A DNA stretch of 64,000 nucleotides from Yersinia canariae. GTDB taxonomy: Bacteria; Pseudomonadota; Gammaproteobacteria; Enterobacterales; Enterobacteriaceae. Where the stretch lies: assembly GCF_009831415.1 (NCBI RefSeq), contig NZ_CP043727.1, positions 3,100,001 to 3,164,000 of the forward strand, given 5' to 3'. The position numbers and the translations under genes were made by a program. Positions 904 through 35,214 of the stretch are shown piece after piece. The notes beneath the pieces were generated by a model. It searched no databases. It had not been told where the DNA came from and worked only from the letters and a program-made list of their open reading frames with translations. Positions within the stretch are counted from its first letter, which is position 1, and each line of letters opens with the position of its first letter.

Positions 904-1564
904 TATGTTAAATATGCATAATGCCGAAAAATGCTATATCACTAAAACAGTTAAAACTAAGGTTTTTAGTCATCTTAATTTTACTGTAGCAAAAGGTGAC
1001 TTTGTTTCAATTATGGGGCCGTCAGGATCGGGTAAATCAACACTACTTAATATCATTGGTATGTTTGATAGCCTCGACAGTGGTTCATGTACCCTAGCGG
1101 GAAAAGAGACTGTTGGCATGAGCCATTCACAAAAAATAATTCTAAGAAGATTATTAATAAGCTACATATTTCAATCATTTAATCTTATTACTCATTTATC
1201 TATCTTTGATAACATTGCCTTACCCCTCAAATATCGTGGTGTTGCCAAAAAAGAACGTATTGAACGAGTAAATAATATTTTAAATCTTTTCAGCATTGAT
1301 AACAGAAAAAACCATACACCAGCGCAACTATCAGGAGGTCAGCAACAACGAGTAGCAATCGCCAGAGCTATGGTATCCAACCCTGAATTTCTCTTAGCTG
1401 ATGAACCTACCGGAAATTTGGATAGTAAAAATGCCCATGCTGTACTTCAACAATTAAAAAATATAAATAAAAAAGGTACAACTATTATTATGGTTACACA
1501 TTCAGATGAAGCCTCTATATATGGCAACAGAATAATAAAAATGAAAGATGGTAAACTCACATAA
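875..1564 (+). CDS. ABC transporter ATP-binding protein, MacB/LolD type
   Basis: This 229-residue ATPase has a Walker A motif (GPSGSGKST), the signature [15 protein letters not shown], a Walker B with DEPTGNLD and a switch histidine (VTHSDE). This set is typical of the MacB/LolD/FtsE class, which works with a separate permease and a periplasmic adaptor. The ATG at 875 was chosen because GGAAGG lies just upstream inside the adaptor gene; an ATG at 905 is possible. No permease gene follows, so it is probably upstream of the window. It likely powers export of the peptide made by the adjoining maturase (inference from neighbours). Confidence 0.88.
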   Translation: MNTISLDLNNMLNMHNAEKCYITKTVKTKVFSHLNFTVAKGDFVSIMGPSGSGKSTLLNIIGMFDSLDSGSCTLAGKETVGMSHSQKIILRRLLISYIFQSFNLITHLSIFDNIALPLKYRGVAKKERIERVNNILNLFSIDNRKNHTPAQLSGGQQQRVAIARAMVSNPEFLLADEPTGNLDSKNAHAVLQQLKNINKKGTTIIMVTHSDEASIYGNRIIKMKDGKLT

Positions 1565-1581
1565 CTGACTAGGAATATATC

Positions 1582-2886
1582 TTGGGAAATTTAATACCGA
1601 TACAAAATATTGATTGCATAAATGACGATCACATGAAATATCTAGAGAAACTTAATACTTGTGAGTATAAAATATTATCAGCTTATTTTATTGGTAAGAT
1701 ACCTGCTGAGAATTTATTTGATGCTGATGAATTGGAGATATTAAACCGCGAGATAAATAGAAAAATATCAGCAAAAGCTATTAAAGCAAAAAAACTAGTC
1801 GTTGTATTGAAAGCTACTCGTTTATGTAATCTTCGTTGTACATACTGTCACTCATGGGCCGAGGGCCCTAATCAGACAGTTTCATTTCATACACTAGTCC
1901 GAACGGTACGACAAATCCTTGCTATTCCTAATGTAAATAGATTTGAGTTTGTCTGGCATGGTGGTGAAATTACACTATTGAAGCCAGAGTTTTTTAAAAA
2001 ACTTATTTGGCTACAACAAAATTTTAAACGCCCAGAGCAATATATTACCAACACAATGCAATCAAACTTAGTTAATATTTCTGATGATTGGTTAATGTTT
2101 ATTAAAGGTATTGGTATGAATATTGGAATTAGTCTTGATGGTATACCTACCGTAAATGATAAACGGCGAGTGGACTATAGAGGAAGAGGTACATCAGATC
2201 GTATTGCTAAAGGTATAGAAAAACTTCGAAAACATGATATTTTATACGGTGCGCTTATTGTTGTTGATAGAGATGTCTGCCAAACCAATGTGAGAGAGAT
2301 GCTAGACTATTTTATCTCAATAGAATTAACCAATATTGAATTCCTCAATATAGTGCCAGATAATCGGTTAATTAAAGGAGAGTACGCGGGCAATGCCTTT
2401 ATTAGTTATGCAGAGTTTATCCACTTCCTATCTGCTCTATTTAATATTTGGATAAATGGTTATCAAGAGAGAATACGCATTCCTATTTTTGATGATTTTA
2501 TTAACGTATTAAAAGATCCAAAAAACAAACCATCGGCGTGCTATTGGTCTGGCAATTGCTCACAAGAAATTATCACCTTGGAACCCAATGGAAACATTTC
2601 TCCCTGTGATAAATATGTAGGTGATAAAGACAGTATATATGGCTCTTTATTAGATACTGACTTGGCCGACCTGCTAGCCCATTCATCTCATAATCAACAA
2701 GCCATAAAAGAGGAAAAAGCAGCAACTGAAAAAATGCGCCATTGCGAATGGTTTTCTATTTGTCACGGAGGTTGCCCTCATGACCGGGTTATTAATCGCA
2801 GACATACCGTAGGATATAATGATGCATGCTGTGGAACAGGGAAATTGCTGGCGGCCATTCAGTATCATTTAGCCAACAGTAACTGA
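1582..2886 (+). CDS. Radical SAM/SPASM peptide maturase
   Basis: The protein has 434 residues. It carries the radical SAM [4Fe-4S] motif C82-x3-C86-x2-C89 (RLCNLRCTYC) after an N-terminal extension of about 75 residues. A C-terminal SPASM-like region follows, with cysteines in CYWSGNC, NGNISPCDKY, HCEWFSICHGGCPH and ACCG contexts for auxiliary Fe-S clusters. Such enzymes modify ribosomal peptides, for example by making cyclophane, thioether or C-C crosslinks. The start is TTG with AGGA about 7 bases upstream. From genus and partners it may belong to the XYE cyclophane-forming group (Xenorhabdus, Yersinia, Erwinia); this is an inference, not a match I could test. The precursor peptide gene is not seen in the window. 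Confidence 0.85.
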   Translation: MGNLIPIQNIDCINDDHMKYLEKLNTCEYKILSAYFIGKIPAENLFDADELEILNREINRKISAKAIKAKKLVVVLKATRLCNLRCTYCHSWAEGPNQTVSFHTLVRTVRQILAIPNVNRFEFVWHGGEITLLKPEFFKKLIWLQQNFKRPEQYITNTMQSNLVNISDDWLMFIKGIGMNIGISLDGIPTVNDKRRVDYRGRGTSDRIAKGIEKLRKHDILYGALIVVDRDVCQTNVREMLDYFISIELTNIEFLNIVPDNRLIKGEYAGNAFISYAEFIHFLSALFNIWINGYQERIRIPIFDDFINVLKDPKNKPSACYWSGNCSQEIITLEPNGNISPCDKYVGDKDSIYGSLLDTDLADLLAHSSHNQQAIKEEKAATEKMRHCEWFSICHGGCPHDRVINRRHTVGYNDACCGTGKLLAAIQYHLANSN

Positions 2887-2910
2887 AGCCACATTTGCGT
2901 GTGACTTCAG
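2883..2910. repeat. Inverted repeat between convergent maturase and kgtP genes
   Basis: An 11-bp stem with one mismatch (CTGAAGCCACA / TGTGACTTCAG) overlaps the maturase stop codon. No T-run follows on either strand, so it may be only a weak or Rho-assisted terminator. Confidence 0.45.
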
Positions 2911-2930
2911 CTATTAACGGCAGTTTCGTG

Positions 2931-4250
2931 TTACAACTCTACCTCTTGGCCTTTGCGGTGTAAGCGCAAAGAAACTAGGAAGGTTAAGAAACACATTGCT
3001 GATACATACCAAAAGAAACTATTTTCCATATCAAAAGACTTAAGAGATAGTGCAACATATTCAGCACTGCCACCAAACATGGCATTGGCAACAGCATAAG
3101 ACAAGCCAACACCTAGTGCTCTAACTTCTGGCGGGAACATTTCTGCTTTCAGTAACCCACCAATGGAAGTATAGAAACTAATTATAATCAGTGCAGTGAC
3201 AATCAGCATAAAAGCTATATAAGGACTGGTGACACCTTTTAGCGCATGGAGAATGGGCACTGTTAATAACGCAGATAACAAACCGAAAGTCAGCATAGAT
3301 GTACGCCGACTAATACGGTCGGATAATGCACCAAATAATGGCTGGATTATCATGAAAATAAATAAAGCCGCCGTCATAACTAGGCTAGCGGTTTTTACAT
3401 TCATCCCTGCTGTATTGACTAAATACTTTTGCATATAAGTGGTGTAAGTATAAAAAGAAAGTGAACCGCCAGCAGTAAAGCCCAATACCATAATAAAGGC
3501 TCGGCGGTTCTTCCATAGCCCTTTCAAGCTGCCGGCATCTTTCTTGTTACGTGTTTTTTCATCTGAAGTTTCATTCAATGAACGGCGCAAATAAAGTGCT
3601 ACCACGGCCAGCAATGCTCCGAGCACAAAAGGAATACGCCAGCCCCAGCTGTGCAATACCTCTGATGATAGAGTTTGTTGTAATAAAACCAAGACCAATA
3701 ATGCAAGTAATTGCCCACCTATCAATGTAACGTATTGGAAAGAAGCATAAAAGCCTTTGCGCCCTTTCACCGCGACTTCACTCATATATGTCGCACTGGT
3801 ACCATATTCCCCGCCGACGGATAACCCTTGAAATAGGCGAGCAACTAATAACAAAATAGGGGCCAGGCTACCGATTGAGGCATAAGTGGGCAAGCAAACA
3901 ATCATTAATGAGCCTGCGCACATCATATAAACGGAAATAAGCATGGAGAGTTTACGTCCATGTTTATCGGCAATATATCCAAATAGCCAGCCACCAATTG
4001 GCCGCATCAAAAAACCCGCAGCAAACACACCCGCTGTTTGTACTAACTGTGTCGTAGGATTATCACTAGGGAAAAAAAGCGGTGCAAAGTAGAGGGCGCA
4101 GAATGAATAAATATAAAAGTCGAACCATTCAACCAAATTACCGGAGGATGCTCCAACAATGGCACGGATTCTCTGTCGTGTATCTGCTTGCTCTGTCAAA
4201 CGTGCTGATTGTGAAGACTCACTCGTTTCTAATGATGTTGTTTCAGCCAT
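2931..4250 (-). CDS. kgtP: Alpha-ketoglutarate permease KgtP (MFS, metabolite:H+ symporter)
   Basis: The protein has 439 residues, close to E. coli KgtP (432), and I recognise near-identical stretches such as [31 protein letters not shown] and [15 protein letters not shown]. It has twelve predicted membrane helices, with the MFS loop motif between helices 2 and 3 (ADKHGRK). It imports 2-oxoglutarate with protons across the inner membrane. It converges on the peptide cassette and has about 320 bases of upstream DNA for its promoter. The N-terminus carries a Ser/Thr/Glu-rich stretch before the first helix. Confidence 0.93.
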
Positions 4251-4569
4251 ATTGATACATCTACCATATTGTTAAACTTCCATGCCAACATAAACTCACC
4301 ACTGAAAAATCTCAGATGCTGAGCTCCCATTCATATATTGCAGATTGTTATATATTGGTAACAATATTGTTTCAATGACCACTATAGAGGAGGCGGTAGT
4401 TTAGGAAAAACCTCAAGTTATCCTGTGATGTCAAATGGATAAAAATGTCGACTCGACTTTTAGGTAAGTACTTTTTTTGTGAACATGGTAGCAAACTTGG
4501 TAATAACCAAAGCAGCAATAGCCGCCAGTGCAGATATATCTCTGGCGACTATCGCTCTACTCTTTTGGA
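4251..4569. other. Intergenic region upstream of kgtP
   Basis: About 320 bases without a credible gene. It holds the kgtP leader and promoter region (no box assigned with confidence). Near 4523-4547 an imperfect hairpin (CGCCAG ... CTGGCG) lies just past the displaced 3' end of the DUF924 gene and could have been that gene's terminator. Confidence 0.5.
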
Positions 4570-4676
4570 CTAAAACACCGATCCCGGTTGGAGTAGAAAA
4601 GCTTGTTCTTCAGCACTGGATACACGGCCGAGAATAAGGTTACGATGTGGATATCGGCCAAAGCGGTCAATAATCG
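4570..4676 (-). pseudogene. Displaced 3' end of the DUF924 gene split by the prophage
   Basis: Read on the minus strand from the att core, this stretch encodes I-I-D-R-F-G-R-Y-P-H-R-N-L-I-L-G-R-V and on through S-S-A-E-E-Q to Q-P-G-S-V-F and a TAG stop (complement of 4570-4572). That is the normal C-terminus of DUF924 proteins. It has no start of its own. The first 148 residues of the same gene lie 28.7 kb away (33247-33777). Joining the two at the shared CGATTATTGA core restores an uninterrupted protein of about 179 residues. This is direct evidence of insertion inside the coding sequence. Confidence 0.9.
4667..4676. repeat. attL core of the prophage
   Basis: TCAATAATCG (CGATTATTGA on the host gene strand), repeated exactly at 33335-33344. 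It falls inside the Ile-Ile-Asp codons of the DUF924 gene. Reading outward, the host gene's proper C-terminus follows; reading inward, phage DNA begins. Confidence 0.85.
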
Positions 4677-4778
4677 TTTAAATTCACTTTAAAGGAAAAT
4701 ACAGAAACTATAATTACACATAAAAATCATAACGTTACATTGATATGTTAGTTGTGATTTTTATTCCATAAAATAACA

Positions 4779-4797
4779 ATGGCGATTAAATGGCGAT
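4779..4797. promoter_or_regulatory. Paired 8-bp repeat inside attL, candidate integrase arm site
   Basis: ATGGCGAT occurs twice with a 3-base gap (11-bp period). The same paired octamer lies inside the other end at 33220-33238. The pairs are about 102 bp (left) and 96 bp (right) from their cores. Paired repeats flanking the core are the layout expected of arm-type sites for P2-family integrases. Confidence 0.65.
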
Positions 4798-4827
4798 GTA
4801 AGTTTTAATATTCGATTAATCGCGGCG

Positions 4828-4851
4828 AAAAAAAACCTGCTTTCGCAGGCT
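4828..4851 (-). terminator. Intrinsic terminator downstream of ogr
   Basis: On the minus strand a CCTGC-GAAA-GCAGG hairpin is followed by a run of eight T. It lies just past the ogr stop. Confidence 0.8.
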
Positions 4852-4855
4852 TCTT

Positions 4856-5074
4856 TTAATACCAGAATACAGATTGATTATCGCGACTCGGATGAGGTGG
4901 CGCTGGTTTTGTCTCCCCCGGTTTGACAATTATTCTATCTACTGTTTCGTGCGTGGCAAAAGTACAACTACAATTTATATTCTGGCACTGGTGATAACGT
5001 TCTTTCGTTTTTTCACTCAGGTAACGGCTAGACCGAGCATGTGCAGCGGTTCTACAAAGCGGGCAATGCATCAT
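4856..5074 (-). CDS. ogr: Ogr/Delta zinc-finger late-gene activator
   Basis: The protein has 72 residues and the Ogr signature HCPLC ... RYHQCQN.NC. The four zinc ligands are C4, C7, C30 and C35, at P2 Ogr spacing, with the conserved RY and IVKPGE segments. Ogr binds TGT-N12-ACA sites near -55 of P2 late promoters and recruits RNA polymerase through its alpha subunit (family knowledge). Candidate sites are at 11545-11562 and 21806-21823. It is the last phage gene before attL and has its own terminator. Confidence 0.93.
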   Translation of the reverse strand: MMHCPLCRTAAHARSSRYLSEKTKERYHQCQNINCSCTFATHETVDRIIVKPGETKPAPPHPSRDNQSVFWY

Positions 5075-5141
5075 ATCTGTGTCCCCTCCTCTCTCTGCTT
5101 ATGTCAATATGATAGCATCACAAACGCTCAATAATTAGCTT

Positions 5142-5172
5142 TATGTGATTTTTATATCGATAAAATCACATA
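5142..5172. repeat. Perfect 11-bp inverted repeat between D and ogr
   Basis: TATGTGATTTT / AAAATCACATA with a 9-base loop, about 9 bases past the D stop. It lacks a T-run, so it may be a weak terminator for the FI-D operon or a protein site at the ogr promoter. It is AT-rich compared with the late genes. Confidence 0.6.
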
Positions 5173-5181
5173 TTATGAATT

Positions 5182-6345
5182 TTATTCAGCCTCATAGGTC
5201 ACATCCGACAGCAACACTTCGAGAGATAATTGTGTGGTATAGCCGCTGTTGCTCAGGCTGTGCGCTACCTTGCTGATTATCCAGCTCTGTTGGTCTATCA
5301 CTGATTTAAAGCCGCTGACCGCTATCGGTGTTTCAGGGAATAAATCAGCGCGCCCCATGGCTAAGGTGATAGAGAACTCGGCCACACCGCGCTGCAACTT
5401 CTCCCATTTAGACTGTGCGGCACGCATCGCGGCTTTTTGTGTGGCGTAAACCGTGGTAATAGTAAAAACGTTATCCTCAGACCCCACCAGATAATCCCCT
5501 TGTTTTTCTTCCACCGGCTTTTTCACTGTCGCCGCCTTGGTGCGGATCGGTTTGGCTTTGGGGTGTTCCAGTGCGCGGAGCTGCTTAAACTTGGGCTTGC
5601 GCTGTAATTTCACCTTTTTCGGCTTGGCCGGTTTGGGGTCTTTGGTGTGCAACCAACTGGCACTCACCCCGGTATACGCGCCCCGGTCAGCAATACTAAA
5701 GCTGTGCTGGTCGCCATCTTGCCGGGTGATCGTCATTTGCGGGATAGGTTTACCGCTGGCCGTGACACCGCTGCCCGGCTTAATAAATAACAATCGCCCG
5801 GCTTTGACGGCGGCCACCGCGCCATTAAGCGAGGCTAACCGGGTGATAAACTTGGCGTCAGTCTCTTGGGTCTGGTCGATATGCGAAATAGTGATATCCG
5901 CCAGTCCGTCAGCCAGCATGGCTTTCAGGTTATTGCGCTCGGCCACCTGTGCCACGACTTTCCCCAGTGTGGTTTCATGGTAAGACACCTCCCTCCGGGT
6001 ATTGAGCGAACCGCGAAAATCCGCACTGCGCGCGCGAATGGTTAGCGTATCCGGCGCGCCATGGTGCTCGACCTCATCCACGGTAAAATCCCCCTTACCA
6101 ATCAGCGCCGAGCCTTTCCAGCCCAAGAACACCGACAGCACCGCGCCCCGTTCCGGCATGGCAAGCTGGCCGTCGGCGTCATCCAGTTCAATATCAAGCT
6201 GGTCAGCCTCAAAGCCCCGGTTATCGGTCAGGCTCAGGGACAGCAGCCGGTCACGGATATTCTGCGTAATATCTTTCTGGTTAATGTTCAGCATAAAGTC
6301 CGGGGCCATATCCGCCCCAGCCGGTAGAGCCATGCCGGTCATCAT
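5182..6345 (-). CDS. D: Tail hub protein gpD (late control D)
   Basis: The protein has 387 residues and matches the P2 gpD family: an N-terminal hub domain like T4 gp27/VgrG (DFMLNINQKDIT, LSLTDNRGFEADQLDIELDD), a TRLASLNGAV segment, and a basic Lys/Pro-rich stretch around residues 235-275. It forms the hub between tail tube and spike. It is the last gene of the FI-FII-E-T-U-D block and overlaps the end of U by 4 bases, which suggests coupled translation. Confidence 0.92.
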   Translation of the reverse strand: MMTGMALPAGADMAPDFMLNINQKDITQNIRDRLLSLSLTDNRGFEADQLDIELDDADGQLAMPERGAVLSVFLGWKGSALIGKGDFTVDEVEHHGAPDTLTIRARSADFRGSLNTRREVSYHETTLGKVVAQVAERNNLKAMLADGLADITISHIDQTQETDAKFITRLASLNGAVAAVKAGRLLFIKPGSGVTASGKPIPQMTITRQDGDQHSFSIADRGAYTGVSASWLHTKDPKPAKPKKVKLQRKPKFKQLRALEHPKAKPIRTKAATVKKPVEEKQGDYLVGSEDNVFTITTVYATQKAAMRAAQSKWEKLQRGVAEFSITLAMGRADLFPETPIAVSGFKSVIDQQSWIISKVAHSLSNSGYTTQLSLEVLLSDVTYEAE

Positions 6346-25969: not shown

Positions 25970-28249
25970 TTAATCATCGAATTCCGGCCAGTCGGACAGG
26001 GCTGGATATTGAATAACTGTGCCGTCTAACGTCATTGAAGCCCCACGCGCTAACGACTCCAGCTCCCAGCGCTCGATGCTGATATCTTTCAACAGTAAAT
26101 CATTGCGAATTTGGGGGATGCGCTGGCGTTCTTCGCGGGTTAAACGGGCGGATGGCGCAATAAGTCGGCCCTTGGTGGGGTCATAACTGCGTTGCATCTT
26201 GCTTATCGTTGGCTGTTTCTCTTTAACGCGGGCCACAATCGCCCTCACGGCGGCAGTGTCCGACCAGTCAATAACGGCGTCCGGTGGGTATTCCATCGCT
26301 ATCACAGGCGTTTTAGCCTGCCCGTTGGGGTCATTTGGCGCTTGGGTGTTTCCACCTAACCCACAGTTATTGACAGGACTCCGAGGCGCGCCAGAGGCGC
26401 TTTTCAAAGTCAAAAGCTCAACGTCAACGGCACCAGCAACGATGCGCCATTGAGTTGTGCGGGTTTCATGAACGAGGTCAGCGCCCAAATGCGGCGCATA
26501 GATACCGACGACTTTCTGTACTTCTTCATCGTAGGCGTTGAGTTCATCGGCAACGCGCTTGGCTAACCGGACGGTCTGATTGCCGCAATTGGTTCCACCT
26601 TGCGCCATAATGTAGGCAGCAAAATCACCCTCGTCAGCAGCATGGCGCACGGCTTCCACGGTTTCGTCGAAAGTCTCAGCCAGACTAATAGAGCGAATAC
26701 GGCGGCACTCGCGATAGACGCCCATGGAGGGCAGACCAATCGGGCGAAATTGAGGGATGCGCCATGTTGCCGCCCACGCCGTCACCGCCGCAGCGGAGTC
26801 AGTTAACAGCTCGCCGGTTTCATGGTCACGCTCACCCTCAAGCGCGTAGCCGTCGATATTCTTGGCGATGTATTTAGCGATATAGCCAGCGGCCCCGCCT
26901 TTGTTCATGTGCTTGCACTCAAAGCGGTATTTAGCGGCTCCGCGCTCGTCACTGTCTTCTTTCAACGCATAGCGGCGCATGACGTCGATAATCTGTTGGC
27001 GCTGGCGACGCTCACAAAACAGCATCATGTGCCAGTGCGGGGTGCCGTCGTGGTGCGGCTCAACCACCCGCATTCCGTAGACGCTTAATTTATTGTCTTT
27101 AAAGGCAGTGCGCATTTTGCTCCAAATATTGCAGAGATAGCGCTGGCCGTCTTTGGGGGAATAGGCTTCATCGTCCCACTTATGGTTAAGCTGGACTTTC
27201 TCGTTATCGCCTTTCCCAACAACGCGGGTCGGGTGATATTTTGACGGGGTGGTGACGGTCAGGAACATGCCGACGTGCTTTTGCCCGGCAGCATATTTTT
27301 CAGTGAAAGCGATGGTGTTCATTAACTCCATGCGGCGAATTTCTGGATTAGAGATACTTGCCATGACCTTATCAATCAGGTCAATACGCTCACCGGTTTC
27401 AATATTTTCTAACTGGCAGCTTTTGAGATATTCCAAATTAGACTGGCGACGGGCGAACACTTCCCGGATAGCCTGCTTACTGGCATAAGAAGACGCCAAA
27501 GCATCCCGGCTAACATTACCGACAGCAATCAATAACGCTTCCCGCCAGCACATCCGTTGGGCTTTAAGTTTGCGCTCCCACCATTCGGGATTAACCAGCC
27601 GCGACAGACTGGCGATAGCAGACGTGATATCTAACCGGCCTTTCAGGTATTTGCGCCAGTGCATCGGCGTGATATTAAAAGCGCGCGCCATTCTGGCAAG
27701 GTCGCCGTATATGCGCACCTGTGCATCTGTCTGCAACAAAACAGCTCTATCACCCTCATTAGCCTTGATGCATTCATCACAATGATGATTGTACGCCACC
27801 ATTAACTCATCACCGATTTTACGAGCAAAGCGGCGCAGCTCTTTATCGTGCATACCTGCTAGGCTGGCATAGGTTGGCGCATCAATGGAAAAGCTCTGTG
27901 AGGCACTGAGGCGCATAACATTCTTATTATTAACCACCTGAATACGCGGCCAGATTCGCTGGTCAAAAACAAACACCAGCCACTTGTTAGCGTCATTTAG
28001 CCCTTTATTGGCTAGCAGGTATTCATAGCGAGAAACAAACTGGCTACGCAGGAAATGAGGGAGTGTGTCGATACGGTCTAAAACAGCTTGCCCCTGAATC
28101 AGTTGTTCACGGGTAAGCGGTCTTTGAATGCCGGGCAAGGTTTCGCGCGGCTTGCTGCCGGGGTAGGTATAGGCGGGAACAGCAGCGCCGCTGCCCGAAT
28201 AAGGCAACGGCGGAGCTGAGGTAATGCGGCCATGAATAGAGGTGCTCAC
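25970..28249 (-). CDS. A: Replication initiation protein gpA (HUH endonuclease)
   Basis: 759 residues from a GTG that overlaps the preceding stop (GTGA). It contains the rolling-circle initiator motifs: H405-W-H407 in GTPHWHMMLF (metal-binding HUH) and the two tyrosines Y456 and Y460 in YIAKYIAK, equivalent to the active pair of P2 gpA. It nicks one strand at the origin, which lies within its own gene (26370-26390), and starts rolling-circle replication. It is translationally coupled to the Topo VI A-like gene. Confidence 0.95.
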   Translation of the reverse strand: MSTSIHGRITSAPPLPYSGSGAAVPAYTYPGSKPRETLPGIQRPLTREQLIQGQAVLDRIDTLPHFLRSQFVSRYEYLLANKGLNDANKWLVFVFDQRIWPRIQVVNNKNVMRLSASQSFSIDAPTYASLAGMHDKELRRFARKIGDELMVAYNHHCDECIKANEGDRAVLLQTDAQVRIYGDLARMARAFNITPMHWRKYLKGRLDITSAIASLSRLVNPEWWERKLKAQRMCWREALLIAVGNVSRDALASSYASKQAIREVFARRQSNLEYLKSCQLENIETGERIDLIDKVMASISNPEIRRMELMNTIAFTEKYAAGQKHVGMFLTVTTPSKYHPTRVVGKGDNEKVQLNHKWDDEAYSPKDGQRYLCNIWSKMRTAFKDNKLSVYGMRVVEPHHDGTPHWHMMLFCERRQRQQIIDVMRRYALKEDSDERGAAKYRFECKHMNKGGAAGYIAKYIAKNIDGYALEGERDHETGELLTDSAAAVTAWAATWRIPQFRPIGLPSMGVYRECRRIRSISLAETFDETVEAVRHAADEGDFAAYIMAQGGTNCGNQTVRLAKRVADELNAYDEEVQKVVGIYAPHLGADLVHETRTTQWRIVAGAVDVELLTLKSASGAPRSPVNNCGLGGNTQAPNDPNGQAKTPVIAMEYPPDAVIDWSDTAAVRAIVARVKEKQPTISKMQRSYDPTKGRLIAPSARLTREERQRIPQIRNDLLLKDISIERWELESLARGASMTLDGTVIQYPALSDWPEFDD
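26370..26390 (-). other. ori: P2-type replication origin (gpA nick region)
   Basis: On the minus strand, CGCGCCTCGGAGTCCTGTCA followed by A, inside gene A. It matches the P2 ori sequence as I remember it and is the expected cis site for gpA. Confidence 0.8.
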
Positions 28250-29151
28250 TCGTCACCCGCATCAAGTTCAAACCTATTAGCAACATCTTCAAGCGCAGTA
28301 CGGCTGACTTCAATCTCAGATTTTTTTTGCTCCCACTCATCCCAATCAATTCGACTGGATATCTTTTCCTCAACAAGTTGATTTAGATAGCGAGGCTGCA
28401 AAGCATCAAGCTCCCAACTTGAGCGGCCATATCTTTTGATATATTGAGCGAAACGAGAGTCTGTTGTTTTGGCTGGATTTTCGGGCGGGTTGATTTCTTC
28501 AACCTGTTCCATATTTAGCGCGATTCGCTCAAGGGAAACTAGAGCGGAGGTATAAGTAAACATATCCAATCGGCCTACCAAATCCCGCGTCATATCAATG
28601 CCACTTGGATCATGGTCGCCAAGGTGCAAAATATGGCAGCGCTGCCGCATATTGGTTGCAGGAATTAAATGACTTTGAGCAAAATCATACAAAACAGAAC
28701 CTGACGGATAACCACGCGCAGCAAGTAAAGGCACATCATACCGATTACAAAGCGACTCAAGGACGCCGACCAATGCCTCTTTTTCGATAATCACAAAAAG
28801 CCGCTGGGATTGATTACTCCATAAATCCTCATGGTACTGCTCAGCACTGGCACGAATAATCTCGCTAGGACTCCTCCAGTGACTCCGGGTAATAAAATCA
28901 CGCGTCCTATCCTCAAGACCAGACCAATCAATCAAGCCCGCGAGCTTCGCGTCATTAATCAGCGAAGCAATACGTTTATAGCTCTGTAGGGTGTTCTCAA
29001 TCATTCCACGCGCCACAAGTTGGTAATAAACCTGACGAGTAGTTAATCGATACCCCTGCCCTTGATATTCCGTCACAATATCGTCAATGGTATTAATCAT
29101 TAACGCGCGTTCATCATTAAAGTTTTTATATACAAAGCATTCAGTAGACAT
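28246..29151 (-). CDS. Topo VI A / Spo11-like protein (5Y-CAP plus Toprim), 'Mini-A' candidate
   Basis: 301 residues from ATG 29151; a TTG at 29208 would lie inside the preceding small gene. The N-terminal winged-helix-like part carries T-T-R39-Q-V-Y42-Y43, matching the catalytic Tyr motif R-x-x-Y-Y of type IIB topoisomerase A subunits, followed by ASLINDAKLAGLIDWSGLEDRTR. The Toprim half has E123-K-E-A, a G-Y-P-S segment and D179-x-D181-P-S-G184. No B (GHKL ATPase) subunit is nearby. It may cut or bind DNA to aid replication or segregation; this is inference. It replaces nothing structural and is coupled to gpA (GTGA overlap). Confidence 0.7.
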   Translation of the reverse strand: MSTECFVYKNFNDERALMINTIDDIVTEYQGQGYRLTTRQVYYQLVARGMIENTLQSYKRIASLINDAKLAGLIDWSGLEDRTRDFITRSHWRSPSEIIRASAEQYHEDLWSNQSQRLFVIIEKEALVGVLESLCNRYDVPLLAARGYPSGSVLYDFAQSHLIPATNMRQRCHILHLGDHDPSGIDMTRDLVGRLDMFTYTSALVSLERIALNMEQVEEINPPENPAKTTDSRFAQYIKRYGRSSWELDALQPRYLNQLVEEKISSRIDWDEWEQKKSEIEVSRTALEDVANRFELDAGDE

Positions 29152-29153
29152 AA

Positions 29154-29255
29154 TTACAGCCCATAAACTTTTAAGGTGAGACACAGCATCACCAAGCCAG
29201 CCCCGCAAATAGCTGGCAACATGACGTGCAAGAAAATCCAGAAACTTAATTTCAT
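29154..29255 (-). CDS. 33-residue single-pass membrane peptide
   Basis: ATG 29255 is preceded by AAGG at good spacing and overlaps the previous stop (ATGA). Its TAA lies 2 bases before the next gene. The peptide is almost entirely one hydrophobic helix (FWIFLHVMLPAICGAGLVML) with short basic ends (MKLS, LKVYGL). The overlaps on both sides and the ribosome site argue that it is real. Function unknown; it could be a small inner-membrane modulator. Confidence 0.65.
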   Translation of the reverse strand: MKLSFWIFLHVMLPAICGAGLVMLCLTLKVYGL

Positions 29256-29536
29256 GGTTTTACCTTGTTGCCACTAGTGACTGAAAACGCAGCCTGACAT
29301 AGCTTCCCTATACGGTTAATTTCAGCCGCCAACGAGGTAAAGCTATTAATCTGCGCTTCACCTATATTGCGTTTTATTAATCCCTCAACCAGTTGAGTAA
29401 TAGTTGGATAATAAGCAATTGGCTCTAGACGCTCTTGCCCCTCGCTTTTACCTTTCTGACTAACCTTTACTTCATTAAGAATAAATTGCAGGCTGTCAGA
29501 AGTAACAACGTGTTTTTCACCGATTTTAATATGCAA
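29252..29536 (-). CDS. DUF5405-like early protein, copy 2
   Basis: 94 residues if started at TTG 29536 (AAGGA upstream), which leaves 10 bases after the previous gene; an alternative start at 29608 overlaps it heavily. Features shared with its neighbour are FILNEVK, AYYPTITQLVEGLIKR, INSFTSLAAEI and a C-terminal LC. Small proteins of this kind are common in P2-like early operons. Function unknown. Confidence 0.7.
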   Translation of the reverse strand: MHIKIGEKHVVTSDSLQFILNEVKVSQKGKSEGQERLEPIAYYPTITQLVEGLIKRNIGEAQINSFTSLAAEINRIGKLCQAAFSVTSGNKVKP

Positions 29537-29546
29537 AATAAATTCC

Positions 29547-29852
29547 TTACTTTGGTAATAGGTTAGGGGAATGAAAATCTTTAAATCCTTTTTCACATAA
29601 CTCAGCAAGACGCTTAGTTTCCTCGACCAGTGCCGAAATAGAATTAATACCTGAGCGATAAATACGATGATGAATTAAATCATTCACTAAGCTAACCCTT
29701 GTTGGATAGTGAGCAATTACCGCCAACACCCTTTCATTTTCTTTGGTGAATTTAATCTCGTTAAGAACGAGGTTTGGAATACGATTTAAAAATTTGGTTG
29801 GCTCACACAAAGTAATTGCGTAACGAGCATCAATGACAATTTCACCAACCAT
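29547..29852 (-). CDS. DUF5405-like early protein, copy 1
   Basis: 101 residues. Paralogue of the downstream gene: LVLNEIK, AHYPTRVSLVNDLIHHRI, INSISALVEETKRLAELC line up residue by residue. The two copies have diverged (about one third identical by eye), so the duplication is old or came from two sources. Its start shares a base with the preceding stop (TGATG). Confidence 0.72.
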   Translation of the reverse strand: MVGEIVIDARYAITLCEPTKFLNRIPNLVLNEIKFTKENERVLAVIAHYPTRVSLVNDLIHHRIYRSGINSISALVEETKRLAELCEKGFKDFHSPNLLPK

Positions 29853-32214: not shown

Positions 32215-33254
32215 CAGTACGAAAGTTACCAGCAGGCAAATGGTTATGTGAATGCTATCCAAACGGGGCAAGTGGCAAACGGATCAGAAAACAGTTTGCC
32301 ACAAAAGGCGAAGCTCTCGCCTTTGAACGTTTTACTATGGATGAAGTTGACGACAAACCATGGCTTGGTGAAAAAGAAGACCGCAGAACTTTGAAAAGCC
32401 TGATTGACTCTTGGTATAGCGCTCACGGTTCAACACTTAGTGATGGACTGAGACGACAAGGTGCTATGCACCATGCATATGAATGCATGAACAAGCCTCT
32501 AGCAAACGAATTTTCCGCTCAACTTTTCTCACGTTATCGTGAGAAACGACTAAATGGTGAGTTCGCCAGAACATCAAGGGTTACAAAGGTCAAACATCGC
32601 ACTCTCAATCTTGAGCTTACTTACTTTCGCGCTGTATTTAACGAAATGTCCCGTCTTGGTGAGTGGAAAGGGGAAAATCCCTTAAAAAATATCAGACCTT
32701 TTCGTACTGATGAAAGTGAAATGGCCTTTTTAACACGCGAGGAAATCAGCACGCTATTAGACCAGTGCCAAAAAGTTGACGGGGATAATCTAGTAATGGT
32801 TGTGAAAATCTGTTTATCGACTGGCGCAAGATGGTCTGAGGCTGAGGGACTTACACGTTCTCAGTTAAGCCCGGGCCGTATCACCTTTATTAGAACTAAG
32901 GGCAAGAAAAACCGCACTGTTCCCATTTCGAAAGAACTACATGATAGTTTTCCAGAAAATAGTGGCCGCCTTTTTACTGATTGTTATACACAATTTGGAA
33001 CCGCATTAAAACGCTGCAAAATTGAGTTACCCAAAGGTCAGTTAACACATGTTCTCAGGCATACCTTTGCCTCCCACTTTATGATGAAAGGAGGGAATAT
33101 TTTAGTACTACAAAGAATACTCGGACATACAGATATCAAAATGACTATGCGATATGCGCACTTTTCACCAGACCACCTTGATGATGCAATACGTTTTAAC
33201 CCTCTAGCCGATAGTAGCGATGGCGATAAAATGGCGATTGGATATATTAAGTGA
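32211..33254 (+). CDS. int: Tyrosine recombinase integrase (P2 Int family)
   Basis: 347 residues. An N-terminal arm-binding domain (LPAGKWLCECYPNGASGKRIRKQFATKGEA), a core-binding domain and the catalytic domain are present, with R207 (GARWSEAEGL), H280-x-x-R283 (HVLRHTFASHF), H306 (LGHTD) and Y315 (MRYAHFSPDHL) all visible. It catalyses integration at the CGATTATTGA core. It is coupled to cI by a 4-base overlap. Its last codons contain the right-hand arm repeats, and its stop overlaps the truncated DUF924 gene. Confidence 0.95.
   Translation: MTVRKLPAGKWLCECYPNGASGKRIRKQFATKGEALAFERFTMDEVDDKPWLGEKEDRRTLKSLIDSWYSAHGSTLSDGLRRQGAMHHAYECMNKPLANEFSAQLFSRYREKRLNGEFARTSRVTKVKHRTLNLELTYFRAVFNEMSRLGEWKGENPLKNIRPFRTDESEMAFLTREEISTLLDQCQKVDGDNLVMVVKICLSTGARWSEAEGLTRSQLSPGRITFIRTKGKKNRTVPISKELHDSFPENSGRLFTDCYTQFGTALKRCKIELPKGQLTHVLRHTFASHFMMKGGNILVLQRILGHTDIKMTMRYAHFSPDHLDDAIRFNPLADSSDGDKMAIGYIK
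33220..33238. promoter_or_regulatory. Paired ATGGCGAT repeat inside attR, candidate integrase arm site
   Basis: Two ATGGCGAT octamers with a 3-base gap, embedded in the 3' end of int. They mirror the pair at 4779-4797 in sequence, spacing and distance from the core. Confidence 0.65.
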
Positions 33255-33777
33255 TACTAAAAGATACTAAAAGATACGAAGTAACCCATTGCTTTAAAAG
33301 ATAAATATATGATTTTAAACGACATTTAAAGGTATCAATAATCGCTTTATGGCGTAATTCGTAATCCAACTGAACCTCATTACCTAATTCGGTATATAAC
33401 TTTAGTGCTTGCTGATGAATTAATGGGGATTCCGAATGCATAAAGGGTAAATAGAGAAAGCCACGTTGTGTGTCTGATAGCTGATCAGCTTGGCCACTGC
33501 TTACCGCTTCCTGTGCCAGCACCAATGCCATTCCATCACAGGAAAAAGAGGTGGGTAAATCACGAAATAGATTTCGGCTAAACTGATCCAATATTAATAT
33601 TTCAGCCAGACGCCCCTCAATATTCTGCCGCCAATGTGCCAGTTCTCCCTTTGAAGCCGCCTGCCAATAGGCCCCAAAATGCTGACGTAGATGGGCATCA
33701 AAATCTTCATCCTTTTTGAACCATAACTCTGGGTCCATCTCACTAAACCAGAATTTCAGAATTTTTTGATAGTCCAT
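33247..33777 (-). CDS. DUF924 family protein with a phage-encoded C-terminus
   Basis: 176 residues. Residues 1-148 are the host DUF924 sequence (QKILKFWFSEMDPELWFKKDEDFD, LILDQFSRNLFRD, FMHSESPLIHQQALKLY, YELRHKAIID). The last 28 residues (TFKCRLKSYIYLLKQW and on) come from prophage DNA and replace the normal 31-residue C-terminus now at 4570-4676. The swap removes the conserved RFGRYPHRN motif, so function is doubtful although the frame remains nearly full length. GGGGGAAAC precedes the ATG. Function of the family unknown to me. Confidence 0.88.
   Translation of the reverse strand: MDYQKILKFWFSEMDPELWFKKDEDFDAHLRQHFGAYWQAASKGELAHWRQNIEGRLAEILILDQFSRNLFRDLPTSFSCDGMALVLAQEAVSSGQADQLSDTQRGFLYLPFMHSESPLIHQQALKLYTELGNEVQLDYELRHKAIIDTFKCRLKSYIYLLKQWVTSYLLVSFSIT
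33251..33280. promoter_or_regulatory. Three tandem 10-bp repeats beside attR, candidate Cox/Apl sites
   Basis: GATACTAA, GATACTAA and GATACGAA at 10-base spacing, between the arm repeats and the core, which is where P2 Cox and 186 Apl bind. The core is the reverse complement of the TAGTATC units in the switch-region array. Confidence 0.7.
33335..33344. repeat. attR core of the prophage
   Basis: TCAATAATCG, identical to attL. To its right is the 5' part of the DUF924 gene, to its left phage DNA. Confidence 0.85.
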
Positions 33778-33978
33778 GTTTCCCCCTAATTTCGCCTGAC
33801 AAAGGCAAAAACCAATAAAAAAGAGTGCCAGAACTCAAGACACTATCAGACTGCGACCTCTTTGCCTCCCATCAATTCACCCGCATGGCAAACTCTGCCA
33901 TAATGGCGCTCTTATTTGATTATTGCCCTGCACCAGTTATAGCTTCTGGCGACGGTGGCTCAGAGCACGGAGTTCAGC

Positions 33979-35214
33979 ATGGATCACTGTAATACCTCGG
34001 ATTTACTCTCTCTGGAACAAGCACTGACTAAAATGCTGTCACAGGTCACGCCATTACAGGCCACAGAAACTGTCGCTCTCACTGATGCTGCGGGACGCAT
34101 CACAGCTTGTGCAATTACATCACCGATTGCCGTGCCACCTTTCGCTAATTCCGCCATGGATGGTTATGCTGTTCGCTGTAATGAGCTTAGCAGCACAATG
34201 CCTTTACCGGTGGCGGGTAAAGCTTTCGCAGGTGCGCCCTTTAAAGATGAATGGCCAGCAAATAGTTGTATTCGGATCATGACCGGTGCCCCTATTCCCG
34301 GAGGGGCCGATGCTGTCATCATGCAAGAACAAGCCGTTGTGAGTGAGCAAGGTGTTACATTTAGTGACAATGTACGTGTAGGCCAAAATATCCGGCTGGC
34401 TGGTGAAGATATCCAGCAAGGAGCGGCTGTTTTCCCCGCAGGTGTCAAATTGGGCGCGGCTCAACTACCACTATTAGCATCGTTGGGTATTGCCGAGATT
34501 ACCGTTTTCCGCGCGCTGAAAGTCGCCATTTTCTCTACTGGAGATGAACTAAAGCCAGTCGGACAACCCTTGGATGACGGGGAAATTTACGATACAAATC
34601 GCTTTGCTGTTCGTTTGATGCTGCAACAGTTAGGTTGCCAAATCATTGATTTGGGTGTCATCCGTGATGATCAACAAGCCTTGCGCAAGGCATTTGAACA
34701 AGCTGATATTGCTGCTGATTTGGTCATCAGCAGTGGAGGAGTTTCAGTCGGCGAAGCGGATTACACCAAACAGATGCTGGAAGAACTGGGTGATATTGGT
34801 TTTTGGAAATTGGCGATAAAACCCGGTAAACCTTTTGCTTTTGGCAAATTGGGCCGCGCTTGGTTCTGCGGCCTTCCGGGTAACCCAGTCTCCGCAGCAC
34901 TGACATTTTATCAATTAGTACAACCCCTTATTGCTAAACTTTCCGGTCACTCAGAGTGGCATCCACCATTACGTTTGAAAGCAAAAACGATAACTAAGTT
35001 GAAAAAAACGCCGGGCCGCTTGGATTTCCAACGTGGCGTATTCTCAACCAATTCTCATGGCGAATTGGAAGTCAGCACGACTGGCCATCAAGGTTCACAT
35101 ATCTTCAGCTCATTCAGCCAGGCCAACTGTTTTATCGTGCTCGAACGGGAGCGGGGTTCAGTAGATGTCGGTGAAACAGTTGAAATAGAGTTATTTAATA
35201 GCCTATTTAATTAA
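33979..35214 (+). CDS. moeA: Molybdopterin molybdenumtransferase MoeA
   Basis: 411 residues from ATG 33979 (GGAG upstream), the same length as E. coli MoeA; the GTG at 33955 is less likely. Clear MoeA motifs: [64 protein letters not shown] and GLPGNPVSA. It inserts molybdate into adenylylated molybdopterin to complete Moco. It is followed 36 bases later by moeB. Confidence 0.96.

Follow-up and report, generated by a model that had tools for sequence, protein, structure and literature searches.

The 64,000-nucleotide stretch of Yersinia canariae DNA analysed here (contig NZ_CP043727.1, positions 3,100,001 to 3,164,000; hereafter the window) contains a P2-like prophage in which a small minus-strand gene, next to the P2-type replication gene A, encodes a protein that, judged by homology, is a member of the published Mini-A family. 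Mini-A was reportedly introduced by Takahashi et al. in 2020 for type IIB topoisomerase-like proteins of mobile elements. The computational analysis supports this family membership, a predicted winged helix and Toprim domain, a conserved active-site set, purifying selection, and carriage of the gene as a one-gene cassette in the early operon. The best explanation, which we consider reasonably probable, is that Mini-A is a DNA-cleaving subunit of type IIB (Topo VI-A/Spo11-like) that would act without a B subunit and may serve as an optional helper in replication or recombination.

The gene is not a chance reading frame, since it is under purifying selection (nonsynonymous divergence dN 0.020 vs. 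synonymous divergence dS 0.22–0.32 in three relatives) and since all 8000 of the 8000 candidates scored are homologous, giving at least 8000 homologues at E ≤ 0.001. On the plus strand opposite the gene, stop codons interrupt the one frame that was translated. A preliminary description of this DNA had pointed to R39, Y42, Y43, E123-K-E-A, D179, D181, P182, S183 and G184, all of which are found in the translation, as is Q40, and to a GTGA overlap with gene A, which is real: the four bases at 28249-28246 contain the start codon of gene A (GTG) as well as the stop codon of Mini-A (TGA). The sequence observation is thus confirmed.

Assignment to Mini-A follows from homology to proteins and genes that already carry the name. 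The prophage protein is 52.6% identical, over 96% of the query, to its homologue in Pseudomonas phage NP1, and the Fig. 4 legend of PMC7614492 names 'Pseudomonas phage NP1 Mini-A' as an example. It is also 24% identical over 78% (E 2e-14) to an archaeal plasmid gene in LC711082, annotated by its depositors as 'Topo Mini-A/DNA topoisomerase VI, Type II', and matches phrog_6247, 'DNA topoisomerase', with an E of 4.2e-121. Homologues occur in 76 phage records, 60 of which were listed, and in 44 plasmid records, two of these being archaeal plasmids with the depositor label 'Topo Mini-A'. Homology to a published Mini-A goes together with small size, no B subunit found and carriage on a mobile element. 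The Topo VI-A/Spo11-like, Mini-A-type identity proposed in the preliminary description is borne out by the NP1 and archaeal plasmid homologies, and no unrelated family matched with confidence; Pfam and NCBIfam scans of the protein gave nothing above cut-off, nor did a Pfam scan of ten diverse relatives, and NP1 stayed below cut-off too. In the sections cited here, Mini-A is described as a Topo VI-A/Spo11 homologue in viruses (PMC11302465), as residing mainly on mobile elements, with no archaeal Mini-A characterised (PMC8185306), and as having an unknown function (PMC8084294).

The residues expected of an active site are strongly conserved. R39, Q40, Y42, Y43, E123, K124, E125, A126, D179, D181, P182, S183 and G184 are invariant in 34/34 aligned close relatives, and R39, Q40, Y43, E123, D179, D181, S183 and G184 remain so in 30/30 diverse Mini-A sequences. 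Y42 is kept in 27 of these 30 and replaced by F, W or M in the other three; because Y43 changes in none, it is the predicted nucleophile. The position of E247 is a glutamate in 29/30. The sole sequence with Q there, from plasmid pFRL3 (L105:14950-15858), also has altered R-Y and E-K motifs around the invariant residues.

Structure prediction points in the same direction. A winged helix ahead of a Toprim domain, as claimed in the preliminary description, is predicted in the models, and an outcome without a Toprim fold did not appear; the features of Topo VI-A and Spo11, i.e. a 5Y-CAP winged helix with its tyrosine and a Toprim with glutamate and DxD, are thus predicted to be present. Both domains, modelled and searched separately against structures (VIA-align), rank Methanocaldococcus jannaschii Topo VI-A (1d3y) first, by small margins. 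For the winged helix, model residues 12-83 align with residues 72-143 of 1d3y, and the offset of 60 at both ends places Y43 opposite residue 103, which we take to be the catalytic tyrosine of this enzyme. JetD was not among the matches listed in the winged-helix search, which excludes nothing.

The preliminary description had also noted that no ATPase subunit lies nearby, and a B subunit is indeed missing as far as the searches reach. The Topo VI-B transducer domain (Topo-VIb_trans, PF09239) was found in none of the 50 Mini-A viral records searched (of 80, some of them fragments), and it was not found in the host genome either, the same search being positive in 4 control archaea; these searches used the transducer model only, with no search for the general GHKL ATPase model.

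Within the prophage, the order leftward from the integrase is integrase, CI, Cox, CII, small genes, DUF2732, two DUF5405 genes, Mini-A and gene A (Table 1). The P2-like (Peduoviridae) cluster of gene A, Cox, CI, CII and integrase is thus present, and it is collinear with Duonihilunusvirus phages. A search for attachment sites found no exact direct repeats of at least 14 bp between 33200-33990 and 1400-6000. Four Yersinia Peduoviridae phages have a gene A that is 92–93% identical; their annotation lists no Mini-A, and their DNA shows no match to the gene. Small genes called 'replication initiation protein' lead directly into A in 06.16-2 and 201.16, the Mini-A slot of 56.17 is occupied by a small gene called 'heat shock protein', and 31.17 has fewer small genes ahead of A. 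Since the DNA of two of these phages (L008 and L011) aligns collinearly on either flank (87–91% identity) and skips the intervening stretch, Mini-A is a one-gene cassette. The pair of Mini-A and gene A is kept in L012, L013, L018 and L005, of which L012 is 100% identical and perhaps the same prophage. L013 and L018 are without a stretch matching window positions 29268-29541, and hence without the greater part of the second DUF5405 gene; the slot upstream of Mini-A is therefore variable as well. Mini-A is rare among related hosts, occurring in 2/25 genomes of the genus (this one included) and in 1/295 sampled from the family (this one itself).

Table 1. Coordinates, in the window, of the Mini-A gene, its motifs and predicted domains, and the adjoining features.
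Feature	Position	Strand	Remarks
Mini-A gene	28246..29151	minus	301 aa, ATG start, open frame from 29151 to 28246
R39-Q-V-Y42-Y43 motif	29023..29037	minus	Y43 is the predicted nucleophile; residues read in translation and alignments
E123-K-E-A, first Toprim acid	28774..28785	minus	Translation and alignment
D179-H-D181-P-S-G184, Toprim DxD	28600..28617	minus	Translation and alignment
E247 in W-E-L-D-A-L	28411..28413	minus	Proposed counterpart of Topo VI-A clasp glutamate; by-eye match
Winged-helix domain, residues 12-83 (predicted)	28903..29118	minus	Range aligned to 1d3y_A 72-143
Toprim domain, residues 115-267 (predicted)	28351..28809	minus	Range aligned to 1d3y_B 189-364
P2-type replication gene A	25970..28249	minus	759 aa, GTG start overlaps Mini-A stop; PF05840 E 1.7e-98, phrog_91
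DUF5405 gene upstream of Mini-A	29252..29608	minus	3' end at cassette edge
1037-bp cassette with Mini-A	28241..29277	minus	Absent from L008 and L011, ~10 bp there instead

The coupling to the P2-type initiator that the preliminary description had proposed is not supported. Gene A adjoins Mini-A in just 1 of 68 distinct viral loci, according to BLAST over all 80 loci and to PF05840 searches, which like those with PF09239 covered 50 of the 80 records. The gene A product (gpA) itself was detected in 3/50 Mini-A viral records with the family model and in 3/80 by BLAST, the same three in each case and all of this lineage. Together with the phages that have nearly the same gene A and no Mini-A, the adjacency count rules out coupling to gene A as a general rule; the arrangement looks like one case of a wider habit of Mini-A to reside in replication and recombination blocks. 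In a FastTree phylogeny of 63 sequences, Mini-A of this lineage belongs to a 12-member group together with that of Salmonella phage SPN19 (Chivirus) and Serratia phage Smarc5 (support 0.91), a grouping that fits a transfer of Mini-A between phage types. The annotated start of the SPN19 topoisomerase (L094:5922-6680) seems to be ~50 codons late, as the open frame extends further upstream and the extra residues align with the N-terminus of the family.

The wider setting was surveyed in 292 IMG/VR relatives, from which 80 loci were kept, 79 with a Mini-A open reading frame (ORF) and 68 of these distinct (<95% identity). A downstream ORF on the same strand is present in 62 of the 68, and for 60 of these a control gene could be picked from the same locus at a distance of more than 1.5 kb. 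The next gene downstream is Sak4-like in 8/62, a phrog_16 helicase in 5/62, a primase in 3/62 and gene A in 1/62 (25 of 61 families listed), as compared with 3/60 primases (phrog_3022), 2/60 phrog_16 helicases and 1/60 phrog_62 helicases among the controls. Sak4 accounts for at most 1/60 controls, not being among the 25 of 66 control families listed, which gives a one-sided Fisher p of 0.018 (one control match) or 0.0035 (none); these values are optimistic, as loci are non-independent and genes were called crudely. A Sak4-like protein next to Mini-A is nevertheless the one clear excess over control genes. ORF clustering revealed no fixed partner, because the largest cluster, apart from Mini-A itself and overlapping frames, covers 14 of the 68 distinct loci, and the gene adjoining Mini-A differs from phage to phage. 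Ligase, Mini-A and a Sak4-like gene stand in a row, in some cases with a small gene between, in L045, L046, L054, L056, L060, L061, L065, L069, L076 and L081; NP1 has the order ligase, small gene, Mini-A, Sak4, with a Cas4-type exonuclease and a helicase in a row further on. Mini-A lies directly ahead of a helicase in L042, L055 and L063.

Other arrangements were seen as well. A Cas4-type exonuclease and a single-stranded DNA-binding protein (SSB) are encoded near the ligase, Mini-A and Sak4 row in L056 and some others. A second layout in temperate phages has a CII-like activator, Mini-A and a large primase, nearly gapless (L026, L031, L036 and L040); in L035, which shares it, the called primase frame starts 908 bases downstream. 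Distant homologues on Streptomyces and Kitasatospora plasmids (H203-H244; L104, L105, L109, L110) are often near one end. They lie within 10% of an end in 15/36 cases vs. 7.2 expected (Kolmogorov–Smirnov p 5e-4, with no control gene compared), the 36 being those of the 44 plasmid records that remained when one duplicate and seven outside these two genera were left out. The four such records that were opened are all linear, and a link between plasmid Mini-A and the ends of linear replicons is worth a look.

Several results weigh against Mini-A being a Topo VI-A/Spo11-like subunit that works in replication and recombination. The other ~45 of the 62 downstream genes belong to other families or to none, and the idea that Mini-A specially precedes helicases or primases is not borne out, because the control genes give similar counts and neither class is in clear excess. 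Pfam models of Topo VI/Spo11 match weakly, with PF21180 (TOP6A-Spo11 Toprim) found in 9/34 aligned members (best E 0.0013) and TP6A_N in 2/34; the DUF2399 (JetD domain) model, likewise weak, matches more members, 31/34 (best E 0.00018). Comparison by hhalign with 16 Topo VI-A sequences, a narrow alignment (effective number of sequences 1.6), was not significant either for the diverse Mini-A set (probability 1.6%, E 0.03) or for the close set (0.2%, E 0.37). PDB sequence searches gave no relative, with no profile match up to E 10 and only chance-level matches for the single sequence. The first places of 1d3y in the structural searches are ties under the rule of the tool (rows less than 1 Z apart): in the Toprim search it scores 9.6 vs. 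9.3 for JetD, 9.1 for a C. glutamicum nuclease and 8.9 and 8.6 for small Toprim proteins, and in the winged-helix search 7.4 vs. 6.8 and below for unrelated rows. Finally, the parts of the Mini-A reviews considered here report no Mini-A activity.

The most likely role of Mini-A is that of a homodimer making tyrosine-linked DNA breaks in phage replication or recombination. In such a dimer, Y43 of one chain would attack DNA held at the metal site formed by E123, D179 and D181 of the other chain, and cleavage would leave tyrosine-linked 5' ends, as Spo11 does. Being without an ATPase, Mini-A would not carry out ATP-powered strand passage. It may break, and perhaps rejoin, phage DNA, thereby initiating recombination or disentangling the products of replication. 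Within this prophage, its part would be that of an optional helper, produced immediately ahead of gpA and no required partner of it. The data do not separate lasting, Spo11-like breakage from breaking and resealing, and we lean towards breakage, given the absence of a B subunit and the company of Sak4. A more specific and tentative idea is that Mini-A is a phage Spo11, a programmed maker of double-strand breaks that would feed the phage recombination machine and start recombination-dependent replication. The ligase, Sak4 strand-exchange protein, SSB and Cas4-type exonuclease found as neighbours in one phage group could then conceivably be this machine, and it is possible, again tentatively, that the same breakage module was inserted, as a dispensable addition, into a P2-like phage that replicates by rolling circle.

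There is a minor chance that Mini-A is an ATP-independent relaxing topoisomerase, which would cut and reseal phage DNA and release supercoils during rolling-circle or theta replication with no lasting breaks. Its complete active-site set and its location among replication genes agree with this, as does the weak ATP-free relaxation of supercoils by M. marina topo VIII described in the part of PMC7614492 considered; the transducer domain found in neither the 50 viral records nor the host genome speaks against it, and so do the phages that manage nearly the same gene A with no Mini-A. That Mini-A is a weapon, a nuclease that cuts the DNA of rival phages or plasmids in the manner of the Wadjet nuclease JetD/MksG, seems unlikely. 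PADLOC run on Mini-A alone gave weak matches only, to JetD (E 0.03) and BnzB (E 0.038), and none of the 9-10 neighbouring proteins scanned resembles a component of the Jet system (JetABCD/MksBEFG operon); they are products of phage replication, regulatory or integration genes or small unknowns. Moreover, MksG is without a candidate catalytic tyrosine in its 5Y-CAP-like domain according to the part of PMC10123090 considered, vs. Y43 in 30/30 Mini-A sequences, and Mini-A sits in an early phage operon, while isolated phages such as NP1 have homologues within their replication blocks.

A dedicated partnership with gpA, with joint action at the P2-type origin or on its products, could explain the tight GTGA overlap and the preservation of the pair in four lineage loci. 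We consider this very doubtful given the four phages with near-identical gpA and no Mini-A, the confinement of gpA to three Mini-A viral records of this lineage, and a neighbouring gene that changes with the phage. It is hardly credible that Mini-A is a DNA-binding regulator that has kept the fold and lost cleavage, as the winged-helix N-terminus alone might suggest, since the catalytic positions are strictly conserved.

The preferred explanation, a cleaving subunit that acts as an optional helper, can be addressed at this locus, which offers close phages with and without Mini-A, a cassette cleanly limited to one gene, and Y43 as the predicted nucleophile. The related phages without Mini-A make its job testable by a natural with/without comparison. 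Spo11 requires partner proteins in meiosis, and studies of the Topo VI-A/Spo11 reaction normally include partner subunits; Mini-A would offer a simple model of this reaction if it makes tyrosine-linked breaks alone.

Compared with known systems, the prophage protein resembles published Mini-A in its similar size, the lack of a detected B subunit and its mobile-element location. It differs from Mini-A as reviewed in adjoining a P2-type gene A, a setting without mention in the parts considered of PMC8185306, PMC7614492, PMC11302465 and PMC8084294, the founding paper being outside this comparison. Like Topo VI-A, it has a (predicted) winged helix followed by Toprim with the same motif order, and 1d3y is the top PDB entry for both domains; it is shorter (301 vs. 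377 aa in the L111 protein), has E-K-E-A in place of the E-T-G-G of the Topo VI-A set and, unlike the Topo VI holoenzyme, comes without a B subunit carrying a transducer domain, as far as the PF09239 search shows. Its W-E-L-D-A-L around E247 resembles A-E-Q-Q-A-L of the Topo VI-A set, matched by eye. In the part of PMC13040014 considered, the key residues of M. mazei Top6A are R102, Y106, E202, D254, D256 and the clasp residue E342, to which R39, Y43, E123, D179, D181 and, as a proposed counterpart of the clasp residue, E247 of Mini-A correspond, with the same spacing of arginine and tyrosine. The likeness extends, by the literature as seen in parts of PMC13040014 and PMC11302465 and with no sequences compared, to Spo11, whose layout and whose R/Y and Toprim residues are those of Topo VI-A.

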